From contig JAFSOC010000015.1 of assembly GCA_017447185.1 (NCBI GenBank), positions 1-64,000 on the forward strand: 64,000 nucleotides of DNA. The letters run 5' to 3'. Made by a program: the position numbers and the translations under genes. The DNA comes from Clostridia bacterium (GTDB lineage: Bacteria; Bacillota; Clostridia; Christensenellales; Aristaeellaceae). Shown here piece by piece: positions 12,004 through 22,224 of this stretch (position 1 is the first letter of the stretch; each line of letters starts with the position of its first letter). The notes under the pieces are model-generated. The model worked only from the letters and a program-made list of their open reading frames with translations. It was not told the DNA's origin and did no database searches.

Positions 12004-15000
12004 ATGAAGAAGATGCAGAAACTGTTGGCCCTGATGCTTGTCCTGATGATGATTGCGGGCGCTTGCGGCGCGCTGGCGGAGGAAACCCAGGATCCGGTGG
12101 AACTGGGAGACCTGCAGCAGCTGAATATTTTTGGCGAGGCAGAAGAGGAAGTGCCCGTCGTGAATATCGAGTATGTGGACACGGATGGGAATAAAGACTA
12201 TAAATCCCTTGAGCAGGATGAAGCCACTATCACTGCCGGAGACATCGAGAAAACGGACAGCGAAAATTACGAACCTGCCCTGACCATTTCCGTAATAAAC
12301 GAGCAGGTGAGTGTCACCGCCGGCGATATTGTTTCAAACAATGACGGTGTGAACGTGGTCAATACCAACAGCGAGATCCAGGCAGAGGTGAACAGTGTCA
12401 CAGCCGAAGGCACGGGTGTGCGCGTGACCTCGGAAAACACGGCATGGGAAAACGGCGAGGAAAGTGACGAAGATACATTCAATGCATTCCTGGAAACAAA
12501 CGGAGAAAAAGCACACTTCTTTGACGGTGATTATGAAGAAGGGATATTTGACCGTTTCTACTGGGCAGAAGGCAGCGAAGAAGCTTTTATTGTCCATTAC
12601 GAATGGAATTCGGAACTGAAAGACTACGACCGTACTTTCCAGAAAACGGAAAGACCGAAGAGCGAAGGAACCACAAGCGTCACTGTGACTGAGGACGTTG
12701 AAGCCAGCGGACAAGAGCAGGATGCATTCGGTGTATATGCCGGCAGCAACCATGAGAATCAGGATATTTCTATTACAGTACAGGGCGACGTAACTGCGGA
12801 AGTGGAAGGAAAAGAAGCCTCCGCAACAGCAGTTCGGGTTGTGAGCGGAGACGCCTACAATGATATTCCGGGCGGCAAAGTTGTAGTGGAAGTAGACGGA
12901 ACCGCAGCTGCTTCCGGTGCTAAATATGGCAACTATGCTGTGGATGCCGAAAGCAACGGGAAAGACAGCACTGTTCTCGTGACAGTTGAAGAAGGCGCGG
13001 AGGGATCGGTCCGGGCTAAAGCCTCAGAAGGAGGCGAGACGAAAATCCGGATTGAAGATGGAATCACAGCGGAACGCAGTGCCATCGAAGCGCTGAGCGG
13101 GGAGATGATCGGTGAATACGGAGACGGCCTGATTAAAGGCGGAACGGTGACCGTTGAAGTGGAGGGCAATGTGACCTCCAAGGAATCGGATGCAATCAGT
13201 TCGTGGAATGTCGAAGGAGAAACGAATATTACCGTAGATGGCGCTGTCACAGCAGAGGGAAAAGGGACGGCCGTTGATCTTTCCAATAACGAAGGAGAAA
13301 CAACGGTAACCGTCACCGGCACTGTGACAGGCGGAATGGGAAGCGAAGACGGAGCCGGCGCGATCCATGCCGATAATTATGGCGGATCCACCACTGTCAA
13401 TGTGAAAGGCGATGTGAAGACGGCCGGCTATGCCGACGCAGTCATCGAAACAGAAAACGCTAAGGGAACAGTCAGTGTGGCTGTGGATGGAAATGTTACA
13501 AGCGCCAACGGCGACGCCATCCGGTCTGTCACCCACAATGAGGCAAAGACCGACCTGGAGATCGGCGGGGACATTTCCGCCACAGGCAAAAACGGTGCCA
13601 GGGCGCTTTCACTGGAAGTGGAAGAACTGGGTACCGTAACCGTCACGGTTTCAGGAGAAACCGTTTCAGCGAAAGGCCAGAAATCGGAAGGAGACGGCTT
13701 CACGGAGACCGTGGGTATCTCCATGACCAATAACGGCGGCAGCATCAATGCGATTGTGGACGCGGATGTCACCGCCTCCGGCGCGGATGAAAACACCGGT
13801 ATCATCCTTTGCACGAATCTGATTACGGGTTTTTCAACAGTCGGGGAACCGGTGGACCTGGGCATTGACATTACGAATTCGCAGTCCGCTTACTGGGGTG
13901 ACGGCTGGCTCGAAGATGGGGAATTCTTTGAGATCTGGGAATACAACGGTGAACTGTACAAAGAGGCAAAAGACGGAAAGTACCAGAAGATTGCGGTCAA
14001 CCAAACCTGCCCCGAAGGTACAATGGACCTGACGGTGACCGGCGATGTGACCGCGGATGACTATGGCGCTGTCCTGATGGTCGGCGAGGAGCAGACTGCC
14101 TCCATCATCGTGGATGGCACCCTGAAGGGCGATGAGGCGGCTGTCGTCATCAACAGTGATGATACAGTGATCAGCGAAAACGTGAATCTGACAGTCTGGA
14201 AGCTGGAAGCCGGAGATGAAAACGCTCCCCTGATCATTTCCTACGAAGAAAGTGAAACCGGCGAAAGAAAAGCGGTTGAGCAGGAGAAAGCGGAAAAGGC
14301 TGTTCACTATATTGTCAAGGTGATGGGAAACTGGGCTTCCACACTGGCTTTCAAGAACATCAAGACTTCCAGTACGGTGAAGGTCAAAGATAACGAATAC
14401 CATACCGCCCTGGAGGACGAAGATGTACAGCTGAAGATCGACCTGGCGGAAGGTGAAACCCTTGACGGCATCTACTACGATGAAGATACCCTGCTGACCG
14501 GTGAAAATCTGAAGCAGGACAGTGAAGGAAACTATCTGATCAGCATGCTCCGCGGCGGCGGTATGATGCTGGGCCTGAGAACCCACAAGCATGATTATTC
14601 AGTGTTCGTCGAAACGGTCGAGGAACCGACCTGTACAAAAGCAGGAACAGATCTGTACAAGTGCTCGATCTGCAGCGCGACACAGAAAAAGACCGTTCCC
14701 GCAACAGGAAAACACACCGAAGAAGTTATCCCGGGAAAGGAAGCAACGTGCAAAGAAACAGGCCTGACAGAAGGCAAGAAATGCGCTGTCTGCGGAGAGA
14801 TCCTGGTGGAGCAGAAAGAGATTGAGAAGAAAGCCCATACCGAAGCAACAATCCAGGGGAAGGAAGCAACGTGCAAAGAAACAGGCCTGACAGAAGGCAA
14901 GAAATGCGCTGTCTGCGGAGAGATCCTGATGGAGCAGCAAGAGATTGAGAAGAAAGCCCATACCGAAGCAACAATCCAGGGGAAGGAAGCAACGTGCAAA

Positions 15001-15594
15001 GAAACAGGCCTGACAGAAGGCAAGAAATGCTCTGTCTGCGGAGAGATCCTGGTGGAACAGAAAGAGATTGAGAAGAAAGATCATACCCCGGGGAAACCAG
15101 TAAAGGAGAAAGAAAAGCCTGCACAGGTTGGCAAGGCCGGGAGTTATGAAGAGGCTGTTTACTGCGAAACCTGTGGCATTGAACTCAGCAGGGAGACTGT
15201 GACAACCGCTACGCTGCCGAAAAAGGAATCTGAGGAAAACGGCAAATATGCAACTGCTGACAGCCTTGATGATATTGACATGCCAAAGGATGTAACCAGT
15301 GACGACGAGGATGTTGTCATTGAAAAACTGAGCAAGTGCTCCGATGCAATTAAGGCAACCGCTAGACAGGAACTGGCCAGTCTGAAGAGAGGCGGATATA
15401 CGATTGATTGCGGCTTCGGCGGGTGGTCCAAGTCCGGAAAAACTACGAACTGTACAATCAAACTTTCTGAGAAAGATGTGCCCAACGGAAGCCAGATTAT
15501 CGTCAACGGGGCTGCTGTTAATGCTGAATTGAAAGACGGCTACTATTATTTCCCGGTTAAACTGCCAGCGATAGTCTTTGTCGCACACAAGTAA
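12004..15594 (+). CDS. Large secreted beta-helix-type protein with CxxC tandem modules (1196 aa)
   Basis: AAAGGAG lies nine bases before the ATG. Signal peptide residues 1-25 (ends CGALAEE). Residues about 85-720 contain beta-helix-like repeats of the type [IV]-x-V-x-G-[DN]-V-[TS]-[AS]-x-x-x-x-G. A YIVKVMGN...MLRGGG domain (about 775-860) is shared with the 1721-4900 protein. From about 865 to 1060 come five modules starting with HDY or [KAD]HT and bearing C-x(6,12)-C-x2-C. Three of these are nearly identical 41-residue copies (KEATCKETGLTEGKKC-[AS]-VCGEILxEQ). The last 120 residues are unique. The Cys/His spacing suggests metal-stabilised or disulphide-stabilised small modules. Extracellular; function unknown. 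Confidence 0.85.
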   Translation: MKKMQKLLALMLVLMMIAGACGALAEETQDPVELGDLQQLNIFGEAEEEVPVVNIEYVDTDGNKDYKSLEQDEATITAGDIEKTDSENYEPALTISVINEQVSVTAGDIVSNNDGVNVVNTNSEIQAEVNSVTAEGTGVRVTSENTAWENGEESDEDTFNAFLETNGEKAHFFDGDYEEGIFDRFYWAEGSEEAFIVHYEWNSELKDYDRTFQKTERPKSEGTTSVTVTEDVEASGQEQDAFGVYAGSNHENQDISITVQGDVTAEVEGKEASATAVRVVSGDAYNDIPGGKVVVEVDGTAAASGAKYGNYAVDAESNGKDSTVLVTVEEGAEGSVRAKASEGGETKIRIEDGITAERSAIEALSGEMIGEYGDGLIKGGTVTVEVEGNVTSKESDAISSWNVEGETNITVDGAVTAEGKGTAVDLSNNEGETTVTVTGTVTGGMGSEDGAGAIHADNYGGSTTVNVKGDVKTAGYADAVIETENAKGTVSVAVDGNVTSANGDAIRSVTHNEAKTDLEIGGDISATGKNGARALSLEVEELGTVTVTVSGETVSAKGQKSEGDGFTETVGISMTNNGGSINAIVDADVTASGADENTGIILCTNLITGFSTVGEPVDLGIDITNSQSAYWGDGWLEDGEFFEIWEYNGELYKEAKDGKYQKIAVNQTCPEGTMDLTVTGDVTADDYGAVLMVGEEQTASIIVDGTLKGDEAAVVINSDDTVISENVNLTVWKLEAGDENAPLIISYEESETGERKAVEQEKAEKAVHYIVKVMGNWASTLAFKNIKTSSTVKVKDNEYHTALEDEDVQLKIDLAEGETLDGIYYDEDTLLTGENLKQDSEGNYLISMLRGGGMMLGLRTHKHDYSVFVETVEEPTCTKAGTDLYKCSICSATQKKTVPATGKHTEEVIPGKEATCKETGLTEGKKCAVCGEILVEQKEIEKKAHTEATIQGKEATCKETGLTEGKKCAVCGEILMEQQEIEKKAHTEATIQGKEATCKETGLTEGKKCSVCGEILVEQKEIEKKDHTPGKPVKEKEKPAQVGKAGSYEEAVYCETCGIELSRETVTTATLPKKESEENGKYATADSLDDIDMPKDVTSDDEDVVIEKLSKCSDAIKATARQELASLKRGGYTIDCGFGGWSKSGKTTNCTIKLSEKDVPNGSQIIVNGAAVNAELKDGYYYFPVKLPAIVFVAHK
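14737..15083 (+). repeat. Three 123-nt tandem repeats inside the 12004-15594 gene
   Basis: The motif AAGGAAGCAACGTGCAAAG recurs at 14737, 14860 and 14983, exactly 123 bp apart, and the copies differ at only a few bases. The near-identity implies recent expansion or gene conversion, so copy number may vary between strains. Confidence 0.9.
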
Positions 15595-16216: not shown

Positions 16217-16255
16217 AACGCCGGATGCGTGAGAACGCATCCGGCGTTTATTTCG
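16217..16255 (+). terminator. Terminator between idi and the RiPP precursor gene
   Basis: Perfect 13-bp stem ACGCCGGATGCGT (16218-16230) / ACGCATCCGGCGT (16235-16247) with a GAGA loop and TTATTTC after it. Confidence 0.9.
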
Positions 16256-16280: not shown

Positions 16281-16697
16281 TCAGCTGTCCATATAGGGAT
16301 TGTGGCTCCTGTTGGATGTTATCAGGCACACATGGAAATGCTTGTCACACAGGTTCTGCTTCTTGCAGTAGATCTTGTGCTCCTCCTGCCAGTCATTTCC
16401 ATGCCAGGGGATCACACAGCCCAGTTCATGCCCGTCCGGTGCGGTTTCACCATCACCGAAAATACCGCCCGCAACGCGATCAAGCTGTTCCACCGGCACG
16501 GATGCCGGTTCACTCTGCCGGGCACGCATGGCTTTGATCTCTTCAATCGCCGCGTTCAGTTCACTCTCTGTGAAATCGAAGGAAAGGCCGCGTGCGATTT
16601 CCGCAACCTCTGCCGGGGTTTTCTCCCGGATCTGTTCGTGGAGTTTTTCATCTCCTTCCAGCATCTTCAGGAATTCGATTGCACTTTCTTTTGCCAT
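16281..16697 (-). CDS. Nif11-like leader peptide precursor (RiPP) with four-cysteine core
   Basis: 138 aa; AAAGGAG lies eight bases before the ATG. Residues 1-76 match the Nif11-like leader type: acidic helical start MAKESAIEFLKMLEGDEKL, an LSFDFTESELNAAI helix, and the ending LDRVAGG (Gly77-Gly78), the usual double-Gly cleavage site. The 60-residue tail is rich in His and aromatic residues and holds Cys94, Cys111, Cys117 and Cys124. It is the last gene of a minus-strand unit with a Fic protein (39 bp away) and a radical SAM/SPASM enzyme. The context argues for a modified secreted peptide. The actual modification is unknown and no exporter is in the window. Confidence 0.85.
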   Translation of the reverse strand: MAKESAIEFLKMLEGDEKLHEQIREKTPAEVAEIARGLSFDFTESELNAAIEEIKAMRARQSEPASVPVEQLDRVAGGIFGDGETAPDGHELGCVIPWHGNDWQEEHKIYCKKQNLCDKHFHVCLITSNRSHNPYMDS

Positions 16698-16736
16698 GGT
16701 TTTTGCTCCTTTCGTTGGTCCGTTCGGAATATTATC

Positions 16737-17498
16737 TCAGATCCTGTCCTGCAGGATGACTTCCAGTTTGTATTGCGCGATGCCGAGGATGCGCAGCAGC
16801 AGGCAGCTGAACCCGGAAAGGTCCTCCCGTCCGCTGTTCGTCCGGCTTTCCGCTTCAGAAAGCAGCTCCCGGTTTGCCTGCAGCCCCGCAAGGGAAGCAA
16901 GCAGGGTAGGCACGGAATAGAAACCGGACAGCAGCATACAGTACAGCATCCGCAGTGTACGCCCGTTCCCGTCACGGAAAGGATGAATCCTGCCGAAGAG
17001 GAAGTAGGCGGCTGCTGCCTTGATTTCACACGGAAGATCCTCATGGATAAAACGCAGCAGGCTTTCGGTTTCTTTCCGGATTATCACGGGTGATACCGTT
17101 TCCCAGCCGGGCCGGACGATTCCGGTGTTGCCGGAGAAGGGGATATGCTCTCCGTCCCGCCGGAAGCGCAGCGGTACTTCGCCGCAAGGAAATTCATCTC
17201 CCTCGGTCGCTTTTGTCCACAGGCGGAAGAGATCTTCCGCAGTCTGCGGCAGGGGAGTTCCCTCACGGAGACAGCGCAGGACGCGCTCCCTTTCCCGCAG
17301 ATCCCGGGAGGCTTCTCCGGATTTCCCTGTGACAGGACTGCACAGCAGTTCCCGGCTGGCAGCCGGGGAAAGAAGGGAACCCAGACGGCGCTCCCTCGCG
17401 CGTACAGCTTCCACTGTCTGCAGCCACTGACCGGTTGGCGTAAAGCAGCGGCCGTCCACACCGGTAACGATCGGCACCCCGATTTCCGCTCTGTTCAT
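16737..17498 (-). CDS. Fic-domain protein (predicted NMP/phosphate-transferring) in the RiPP operon
   Basis: 253 aa from the ATG that overlaps the radical SAM stop codon (ATGA), a sign of translational coupling; another in-frame ATG lies two codons upstream. The active-site loop is canonical, HPFRDGNGRTLR with catalytic His172 and Arg180, preceded by the usual FGRI helix end. Fic enzymes typically transfer AMP, or sometimes other phosphate-containing groups, to Ser/Thr/Tyr hydroxyls of proteins. I do not see a convincing (S/T)xxxE(G/N) inhibitory motif in the N-terminal half. The position between maturase and precursor suggests a second tailoring enzyme or a protective role. That is inference. 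Confidence 0.88.
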   Translation of the reverse strand: MNRAEIGVPIVTGVDGRCFTPTGQWLQTVEAVRARERRLGSLLSPAASRELLCSPVTGKSGEASRDLRERERVLRCLREGTPLPQTAEDLFRLWTKATEGDEFPCGEVPLRFRRDGEHIPFSGNTGIVRPGWETVSPVIIRKETESLLRFIHEDLPCEIKAAAAYFLFGRIHPFRDGNGRTLRMLYCMLLSGFYSVPTLLASLAGLQANRELLSEAESRTNSGREDLSGFSCLLLRILGIAQYKLEVILQDRI

Positions 17499-18958
17499 AG
17501 GCATTCAGGAAGCGCGTTTTCGGCTTTCAACTCCTGCACTTCCGCGGCGGAGGCCGGATGACGCTGCAGATAGCGTTCGAAAGCGGGATGGGCTGCCTCG
17601 CGGACGCGCTCCTCCCAGCCATTCCGGAAGAAGAAACAGGCATCCGGATCGACACCGCAGGGATTGTCCCCGGCAATCAGCGCGCTGTTGCGGCACCCGC
17701 CGGTGCACTGGTCCGCCCAGGCGCATGCGCGGCATTCATCGTTCCCATTACGCACATCGGCCACTGTCAGATAGCTCAGCTTCACATATTCCGAATCGGT
17801 GAGGATCTCCCGCAGGGGCCGGTTGAAAAGGCTGTCCAGCCGCCCGGCAATGCCGCAGTCGCACATTCCCTGGCACGGGGAAACAATTCCGTCCGCGCCG
17901 ATATAGAATACGCCGCCCAGGACGCCGCAGGCCAGCGTTTCCGCCGCTTCTTCCGCCGGGCATTCCCGATGATAAGCCACATGCCACTGCGGCATGCCGG
18001 GCGCATACATGAACGCTCCGGAGAGCATCAGGGAAAGCGGCGCGTCGTCCTCAAAGTATTCCGGAATATAATCACAGTACAGGGACAGTTCTTCTTCCTG
18101 CGTGAGCCTCAGCGCTTCCGCCTCGGGCCCTTGCCATTCTCCCAGGTCCATGATGGCAGCGCATTTAAGGCCGTTCACACCCAGGGAGGAAAGGAAACGG
18201 ACGGTTTCCCGCAGAGAGGAAGCATTCCTGCGATGCAGGCACATGGAAACAGAAACACCGTAGCCGCGCGCCTGCAGCAGCCGCAGCGCCTTTACGGTCC
18301 GTTCCTCTGCGCCGGGAACGCCCCGCAGGAAATCATGGCAGCCGATTCCGTCGAAGCTCAGCTGGAAACCGGGATGCACATGATGCTTCTCCAGCATGTC
18401 CAGGAACTTTTCGTCCACCAGCCAGCCGTTGGTGTAAATGGTTTCAAGCCCGATCTCCCGCTCGTTCAGCAGGTCAATAATTTCCGGCAGATCGCTGCGG
18501 ATCAGGGGTTCACCGCCGGTGATGCTCACATTGAACACACCGCATTCCGCCAGCTGATCCACGATACCTAGTATCTGCGCATGGGACGGGGAGCCGTGCT
18601 TCGCATGCGGTGCGGACATGAAGCAGTGGCGGCATTTCAGGTTGCACTCGCCGGTGACAGACCAGTGCGCTTCCCGGCGGTATCTGGCCGGGTAGGCGCG
18701 GTATTGCTGCACCTCCTGCAGGAAGTCCCACATACCGGCTTCCCGGACGATGCCTTCCCGGAGCATCTGGTCAAAAAAACGCTTCTGCCGATCCCCGCCG
18801 GCTGCAGGATCAATCTCCTGTACAGCATCGTAGCGCATCAGGAGCCGGTACAGGCTTTCCTCAAAGAAGGATGCCCTGCGTTTCACGGTATCGTAAACTC
18901 CGTAAGGCGCGCCGTGCCATCCGCGGAACCGGTACCGGCTGTCAAGAATATATTTCAT
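17495..18958 (-). CDS. Radical SAM/SPASM peptide maturase
   Basis: 487 aa from MKYILDSRYRF; AGGAG lies 13 bases upstream, so the in-frame ATG at 19015 cannot be excluded. Residues 1-95 look like a leader-recognition (RRE/PqqD-like) region. The radical SAM cluster motif is C-NLK-C-RH-C (Cys105, 109, 112), followed by ITGGEPL. The C-terminal SPASM part has ADGIVSPCQGMCDCG and CRACAWADQCTGGC plus two more cysteines, enough for two auxiliary Fe-S clusters. Such enzymes install thioether (sactionine-type) or carbon-carbon links in peptide cores. The four-cysteine precursor downstream is the expected substrate. First gene of a three-gene operon. Confidence 0.9.
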   Translation of the reverse strand: MKYILDSRYRFRGWHGAPYGVYDTVKRRASFFEESLYRLLMRYDAVQEIDPAAGGDRQKRFFDQMLREGIVREAGMWDFLQEVQQYRAYPARYRREAHWSVTGECNLKCRHCFMSAPHAKHGSPSHAQILGIVDQLAECGVFNVSITGGEPLIRSDLPEIIDLLNEREIGLETIYTNGWLVDEKFLDMLEKHHVHPGFQLSFDGIGCHDFLRGVPGAEERTVKALRLLQARGYGVSVSMCLHRRNASSLRETVRFLSSLGVNGLKCAAIMDLGEWQGPEAEALRLTQEEELSLYCDYIPEYFEDDAPLSLMLSGAFMYAPGMPQWHVAYHRECPAEEAAETLACGVLGGVFYIGADGIVSPCQGMCDCGIAGRLDSLFNRPLREILTDSEYVKLSYLTVADVRNGNDECRACAWADQCTGGCRNSALIAGDNPCGVDPDACFFFRNGWEERVREAAHPAFERYLQRHPASAAEVQELKAENALPECL

Positions 18959-19065
18959 AAATGGAACAGGTCTCCTGTGTGATTTCTGTTTTCTTCCGTC
19001 CGGAAAGCTTTTCATAACTCTGAGGATGGATGAATTCCTGTATATACATTGTCTGATTCATAAAA

Positions 19066-19094
19066 AGTATACGCAAAAAGTGCCTTAATTGCAA
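19066..19094 (-). promoter_or_regulatory. Promoter of the RiPP operon
   Basis: Minus-strand TTGCAA (19089-19094), 17-bp spacer, TATACT (19066-19071). Transcription would start near 19059, upstream of both possible start codons of the radical SAM gene. Confidence 0.65.
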
Positions 19095-21861: not shown

Positions 21862-22224
21862 ATGGAAAAAATCACAAGGAAAGCATTCGAAGAGTTACTG
21901 GAAAAAGATGAAGCCCTGCAGGTGAAAGCAAACGAATTCATTGGTGACGGCGGCGCAGAAAAGGCGGTTGCCTTTGCTACCTCCCTGGGCTATGAACTGG
22001 ATCCTGCCGTGAAAGAGCAGGAAATCAGCCCGGATGAAATGGAAAATGTCGCAGGCGGTGGCCCTCAGGATCAGAGCATGTCGCCTGCAAAGCAAAAAAA
22101 GGTCATCTGCAAAAGGAAAGGCCACGACTGGGCTTTGGTAAAGCGCGAGAAAGGTATCTTCTGGGGGTACAACGCTTACTATCAGTGCAACCGGTGCGGC
22201 GCACAAAGAAAAGAATGGGAATAA
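21862..22224 (+). CDS. Nif11-like leader protein with zinc-ribbon-like tail
   Basis: 120 aa. Leader residues 1-67 follow the Nif11 pattern (MEKITRKAFEELLEKDEALQ, then a helix and ISPDEMENVAGGG). The putative cleavage site is Gly65-Gly66. The 54-residue tail contains Cys83, His88, Cys109 and Cys112 in the order C-x4-H ... YYQCNRCG. This looks like a one-zinc ribbon rather than a macrocyclised peptide core. No modification enzyme is adjacent; the nearest is the radical SAM operon 3 kb away. AGGA lies eight bases before the ATG. It may be an exported, metal-binding small protein or an orphan substrate. Confidence 0.8.
   Translation: MEKITRKAFEELLEKDEALQVKANEFIGDGGAEKAVAFATSLGYELDPAVKEQEISPDEMENVAGGGPQDQSMSPAKQKKVICKRKGHDWALVKREKGIFWGYNAYYQCNRCGAQRKEWE

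Follow-up and report, generated by a model that had tools for sequence, protein, structure and literature searches.

A radical SAM/SPASM–Fic–Nif11 gene triad in a Clostridia genome: a probable RiPP cassette with a candidate Fic tailoring enzyme

Organization of the gene triad

The DNA analysed here (the window) is a stretch of 64,000 nucleotides, positions 1 to 64,000 of contig JAFSOC010000015.1 from the Clostridia bacterium assembly GCA_017447185.1 (Christensenellales; Aristaeellaceae), and it contains three adjoining minus-strand genes that are the subject of this report. They code for a radical S-adenosylmethionine (SAM)/SPASM maturase (17495–19015, a 506 aa open reading frame, ORF), a Fic-family protein (16737–17504, 255 aa), and a Nif11-type precursor (16281–16697, 138 aa) of a ribosomally synthesized and post-translationally modified peptide (RiPP). 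The ORF list and family profile scores place all three where the initial annotation had put them.

The junction between the maturase and Fic genes reads ...TGCCTATGAACAG, with the TGA stop of the former overlapping the ATG start of the latter; a second in-frame ATG lies 6 bases further upstream. The Fic stop is followed by a 39 bp gap (16698–16736) containing a ribosome-binding-like AAAGGAG, and then by the precursor ATG, so that both the coupling and the spacing described initially can be read directly from the DNA. The suggestion that the three genes share one promoter stands less firmly: the weak sigma-70-like match upstream of the maturase gene (19066–19094, minus strand; 9 of 12 matches) is no better than chance, with 2 promoter-like sites in the region against a shuffle average of 1.6, and a common promoter is therefore suggested by the gene spacing and not by this match. 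An intrinsic-terminator-like hairpin of 14 pairs, 9 of them G-C, lies 3' of the precursor gene (16217–16248, minus strand), and the region has eight such hairpins compared with 3.2 in shuffles. The triad does not stand out in G+C content (0.586; mean 0.560; z 0.84).

Conservation and distribution of the triad

The initial annotation had proposed a new RiPP system and had made its case depend on the same gene order in related genomes. The maturase–Fic–Nif11 order recurs in three further genomes (loci L081, L080, and L085), the coupling of start and stop is kept, and the four loci form one supported clade, all of which supports the proposal. In each of the four triads the Fic start either overlaps the maturase stop or lies a few bases ahead of it, as ATGA in the window, as GTGA in L081 and L080, and in L085 as an ATG within the maturase end together with TTGA. 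Rough pairwise ratios of nonsynonymous to synonymous substitution (dN/dS) are 0.12–0.41 in 15 of 18 gene pairs of triad genes; in the remaining three dS is saturated, and in some of the rest it comes close to saturation. These ratios and the recurrence of the order argue that the cassette is more than a chance arrangement, and the triad is very probably a RiPP pathway cassette.

The triad is rare, being present in three of 308 genomes of the family (own genome included) and in one metagenome-assembled genome (MAG) outside that set, L085. A two-sequence Fic profile searched against the 308 genomes at E 1e-8 matched six of them. The own genome, G473, and G640 score 500–579 bits, each with its Fic gene flanked by such a maturase and a Nif11 precursor (G473 and G640 are the same contigs as L081 and L080); L161 (G587) codes for a nearly full-length but divergent Fic protein (149–150 bits) with no maturase or Nif11 match adjoining, and the matches in L078 and L079 are limited to the motif region. 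A distant Fic relative in L173 (62 bits) likewise stands without a maturase beside it, as judged by eye from its ORFs. Within the order, 83 of 396 genomes have at least a partial Fic match, and the only full-length one is the window's own; among 391 genomes sampled in the class, no other genome has a Fic protein of this type (0 of 390 others at E 1e-15). Three other genomes of the genus (40 sampled) code for a maturase of the clade (833–848 bits) with no Fic match at E 1e-8.

Relatives of the maturase were sought in one genome per species across 84,980 species, using two short peptide patterns and the maturase alignment, and those analysed are the best 80 of 165 confirmed, in 79 loci, with L081, L080, and L085 among them. 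In a maximum likelihood tree of 71 maturases the four Fic-linked sequences form one clade (ultrafast bootstrap 95; Shimodaira–Hasegawa-like approximate likelihood ratio test, SH-aLRT, 82), and the Fic label changes once; the figure over 200 bootstrap trees is 94%. Since the nearest tree rows (L082, L083, L084, and L105) have no Fic gene beside the maturase, the Fic gene was most simply gained once. The record of L085 is from a Solobacterium sp. of sheep duodenum and that of L081 from sheep omasum, the title of L080 naming no host; by their titles, many records of the maturase clade come from the ruminant gut. We also note that L105, L109, L113, and L117 are clade maturases in MAGs labelled Coriobacteriaceae, Coriobacteriales, or Atopobiaceae (Actinomycetota), which suggests either that the gene has crossed between phyla or that contigs were misbinned.

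The idea that the triad belongs to a mobile element was rejected: among 72,556 plasmid records none carries a maturase relative at E 1e-30, and no Fic relative was confirmed in viral contigs among 28 pattern matches. Of 40 further genomes sampled in the genus, four match an isopentenyl-diphosphate isomerase gene flanking the triad at E 1e-30; the other window flank genes tested have no match at E 1e-8 in 15-kb stretches of two of the isomerase-positive genomes.

The radical SAM/SPASM maturase

The maturase scores above the Pfam cut-offs for Radical_SAM (72.3 bits; cut-off 29.5) and SPASM (22.3; 21.5), and its start, when aligned with those of its relatives, corresponds to Met20 at window base 18958. 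The CX3CX2C radical SAM motif (C124, C128, and C131) is invariant in all 38 aligned sequences. SPASM domains have a seven-Cys pattern, CX9-15GX4C ... CX2CX5CX3C ... C, and this is matched by C363-x12-G376-x4-C381, C428-x2-C431-x5-C437-x3-C441, and C460, also invariant in 38 of 38; 37 of these sequences have a Pfam SPASM match at E up to 1. The AlphaFold model (predicted local distance difference test, pLDDT, 90.6) aligns with SkfB, SuiB, anSMEcpe, and 5wgg, which we take to be CteB, and the alignments to SuiB and SkfB span the N-terminal part of the maturase (model ranges 21–463 and 27–453). A profile of the N-terminal region built from 20 sequences found no PqqD-like RiPP recognition element, the type of domain that binds leaders, among PDB sequences.

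Of the 81 NCBIfam families matched, the 25 listed all have curated cut-offs that the maturase does not reach; its best score is 96.4 bits against a cut-off of 400, and for TIGR04103, nif11-class maturase 3, it scores only 77.5 bits against 725. The Fic-less maturases of the wider clade are 49–62% identical to it, and the L085 maturase is 57–59% identical to the other Fic-linked ones. Matches to PADLOC pVip models (51, 43.8, and 24.9 bits) cover part of the radical SAM core only and were set aside as superfamily or chance signals. Several maturase paralogues, L183, L186, and L187 (in G525, G531, and G533) among them, carry one or more in-frame stops within the matched region, TGA in many cases, and may be decayed copies or assembly errors.

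The Nif11 precursor and its core

The precursor exceeds the Nif11 cut-offs of both Pfam (43.7 bits; cut-off 23.8) and NCBIfam (TIGR03798, 35.6; 32.3), and is the sole Nif11 (PF07862) match in its genome at E 0.001. The leader (residues 1–78; 16464–16697, minus strand) ends in VAGG at residues 75–78, a double-glycine site, and the core (residues 79–138; 16284–16463, minus strand) contains Cys94, Cys111, Cys117, and Cys124 and ends in MDS. With the GG at 77–78 of 138 residues, 60 residues follow it, and the annotated leader and four-Cys core are thus both evident in the precursor sequence.

All four Fic-linked precursors have the spacing C-x16-C-x5-C-x6-C and the C-terminal MDS. Among 112 distinct Nif11-type ORFs (profile matches at E 1e-3, including fragments, at least two of them cut by a contig end, and leaving aside loci that repeat other contigs, namely L047–L050, L075–L077, L160, and L161), the MDS end occurs in these four and in none of the other 108; an FxVC motif occurs in the same four and in one other, L116. 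Ser138 is the only Ser/Thr/Tyr column aligned across the four cores, and the tail is more alike between the window and L085 precursors (11 of 21 residues identical) than the remaining core positions (13 of 36) or the leader (31 of 78). On these two grounds Ser138 would be the best candidate modification site, with the Ser or Thr residues near Cys124 next. A PADLOC assignment of the precursor to Cas4 (19.1 and 17.1 bits) was rejected as a superfamily or chance signal.

Fic-less relatives of the maturase are accompanied by related cores, for example GEDAPDGHEMGC...WC...YYC, or by other cores, and their precursors occur in arrays of up to 12. In the L100 and L089 arrays a single maturase is followed by 12 and 10 precursors, respectively, which are diverse Nif11-type ORFs, an arrangement like that of pathways where one enzyme acts on many substrates. 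There may also be a separate kind of core: the L086, L087, L088, L095, and L121 precursors have RDWxxxGCAATVE...CW cores, with paired CPKC or CPNC-type motifs at the end in L087, L088, and L121, and the GG-leader peptide of L063 (5358–5765) ends in CTYCG.

The Fic protein

The Fic protein scores 43.8 bits against Pfam (cut-off 24) and has the motif HPFRDGNGRTLR at residues 174–185, which fits HxFx[DE]GNxRxxR. The motif is whole in the window, L081, and L080, and all five aligned sequences retain the catalytic His, the Asp, the Gly-Asn, and the last Arg. All 50 structures among the matches listed by Foldseek for its model are of the Fic family, the best being 4rgl (TMq 0.63; root-mean-square deviation 7.2).

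Fic proteins can be held inactive by a motif, [ST]xxxE[GN], that lies either in the protein itself (class II, self-inhibited) or in a small antitoxin whose gene adjoins that of Fic (class I). No such motif stands at a shared position in the Fic-linked proteins, with matches at residue 97 in the window (TKATEG) and residue 2 in L081 and none in L080 or L085; the distant L161 protein has matches at residues 32 and 158. None of the four Fic-linked precursors has the antitoxin motif, and the other neighbour of the Fic gene is the maturase gene. A toxin–antitoxin pair was rejected as the leading idea because the precursors lack that motif. PADLOC matches to SoFic (40.5 bits) and to PDC-S04/PDC-S24 (22–27 bits) cover the motif region only and were treated as superfamily or chance signals.

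Export and leader removal

The absence of a linked exporter or protease, as initially annotated, is true at the locus, but an NHLM C39-peptidase/ATP-binding cassette (ABC) pair is encoded on another contig of the same genome (C7). There the NHLM ABC1 protein scores 911.7 bits (cut-off 853.3), and the ABC2 protein encoded after it scores 736 (709.4). ABC2 is above its cut-off in all six genomes tested, including the other three with a Fic-linked locus (G473, G640, and G670), although in G670 it passes only when neighbouring in-frame pieces are added; in L050 (G402), exporter genes lie close to the maturase and its precursors. Haft et al. 2010 (PMC2887384) describe a Gly-Gly motif and modification and export genes that may be distant from the precursor. 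From what is established for the NHLM system, the C39 peptidase would cut the leader after VAGG.

A proposed pathway and its alternatives

From the gene content we infer the following pathway. The radical SAM/SPASM enzyme would recognise the Nif11 leader, possibly by way of the enzyme's N-terminal domain, and would crosslink the core through its four Cys. The Fic protein, translated together with the maturase, would act as a second tailoring enzyme, transferring AMP, another nucleotide, or a phosphate from a nucleoside triphosphate to a core hydroxyl, most likely that of the C-terminal Ser in the MDS tail. The NHLM C39-peptidase/ABC pair would then cut after VAGG and export the product. We give even odds to the peptide being tailored by Fic; the narrower proposal that the C-terminal Ser is the site is tentative. 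The most specific form, in which a crosslinked peptide with an AMPylated C-terminal Ser is secreted as a microcin C-like conjugate and inhibits rival gut bacteria in the manner of a Trojan horse, is more speculative again. In broader terms, the product probably has a role in competition between gut bacteria.

Several observations weigh against Fic acting on the peptide, or against the C-terminal Ser as its site. Of the 38 loci of the wider maturase clade, 34 have no Fic gene, a call that denotes no profile match and no canonical Fic motif in the available stretch (several loci end near the maturase), and 25 of the 34 have Nif11-type ORFs by profile; the Fic-less group includes the three other genomes of the window's genus. 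Because the four Fic-linked loci are one clade, the association of MDS tail and Fic gene may reflect shared ancestry, and common descent does explain part of it. A Ser or Thr two or three residues past Cys124 is likewise present in every Fic-linked core, though not at one alignment position, which gives candidates besides the C-terminal Ser. The L085 Fic protein has HSFRDGNGHLLR, with Pro changed to Ser and the first motif Arg to His, which makes its activity less certain. The window Fic model has a mean pLDDT of 75.4 as one of five models from 4 sequences, the others scoring 44–59, and Fic targets are mostly folded proteins.

The alternative that survives best, itself improbable, is that the Fic protein confers self-protection, nucleotidylating the cellular target of the product or an essential protein in the producer and leaving the peptide untouched. 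Topoisomerases are among the proteins that Fic enzymes modify, and EF-Tu is a target of the Fic relative Doc; moreover, no other gene of the triad could be an immunity gene and the coupling of Fic with the pathway is conserved. An immunity role does not, however, predict that the MDS tail tracks the presence of Fic.

It is a little less probable that an ordinary Fic protein, either a toxin or a housekeeping AMPylator, became fixed between RiPP genes by chance and has an unrelated function. Such an event is made easier by the abundance of Fic genes in the order (the 83 of 396 genomes with at least a partial match), and the distant relatives in L161 and L173 do stand without a maturase. Yet the gene order and overlap are kept despite the divergence of the L085 maturase (only 57–59% identical), in each of the three genomes of the family where Fic scores 500 bits or higher the match lies in the cassette, and the four precursors lack [ST]xxxE[GN].

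Regulation of the pathway, with Fic nucleotidylating the maturase or another pathway protein, would account for a Fic start at or overlapping the maturase stop in four of four loci, but it is unlikely given that similar Fic-less maturases of the clade (49–62% identity to that of the window) apparently function without Fic. Least likely of all is that Fic, catalytically weak or inactive, serves the maturase as a scaffold, for instance one that holds the tail of the core, an idea which the motif changes in the L085 and L161 proteins favour and which the conserved catalytic residues in all five sequences, together with the whole motif in the window, L081, and L080, oppose.

Other peptides and genes in the window

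A second Nif11-like peptide is encoded at 21862–22224 (plus strand), with a leader ending in VAGGG, a TIGR03798 score of 21.3 bits (cut-off 32.3), and a zinc-ribbon-like core, CKRKGHDW...YYQCNRCGAQRKEWE; no modifying enzyme gene directly adjoins it, and a rhomboid-family gene is just upstream. Elsewhere (12004–15594, plus strand) is a gene for a protein of 1196 aa that begins with a signal-like sequence and has, near its C-terminus, three near-identical repeats that contain CxxCG.

Relationship to known systems and significance

The Fic-linked precursors resemble the Nif11-leader (N11P) RiPPs (PMC2887384), which have a long Nif11 leader running to Gly-Gly and a variable Cys-rich core, and modification and export genes that may be far from the precursor; here the exporter pair is encoded in trans. 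That paper contains 'radical SAM' and 'Fic' zero times and describes heterocycles and lanthionines. The maturase has the Cys motifs, domain order, and fold of SPASM maturases such as SkfB, SuiB, CteB, and the NCBIfam nif11-class enzymes, but forms a separate clade and scores under the cut-offs of the NCBIfam families listed. Similarly, the Fic protein has the fold and HPFxDGNGRxxR motif of Fic protein adenylyltransferases (SoFic and others), but scores only 28.7 bits against 550 for the SoFic equivalog, is encoded inside a RiPP cassette, and, unlike the class II self-inhibited SoFic type, has no [ST]xxxE[GN] at a shared place. The precursor class, maturase superfamily, and exporter are known, and the Fic partner is not linked to them in the literature searched; no report of Fic as a RiPP tailoring enzyme was found among the titles and abstract openings of open-licence papers.

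The nearest analogy for the proposed product is microcin C, a ribosomal peptide; one with AMP at its C-terminus would be of the same kind. Its enzyme MccB is described in PMC13255007 as a ThiF-superfamily enzyme that adenylates the MccA C-terminus, with a rearrangement through the C-terminal Asn. No ThiF domain was found in the three cassette proteins (Pfam, E up to 0.1), and a nucleotide peptide made by Fic would be reached by a different route. Nucleotide-dependent tagging of a C-terminal Ser also has a parallel in the lasso-peptide kinases, which phosphorylate the C-terminal Ser (paeninodin), although the kinase is unrelated and the peptide class another.

Because the candidate substrate is encoded beside the Fic gene, the cassette provides a Fic enzyme whose possible target can be tested directly. 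If Fic does modify the peptide, it would be, within the literature searched, the first Fic tailoring enzyme in RiPP biosynthesis; RiPP chemistry would come to include nucleotidylation, carried out by a large enzyme family, and products like microcin C would have a second route unrelated to the first.

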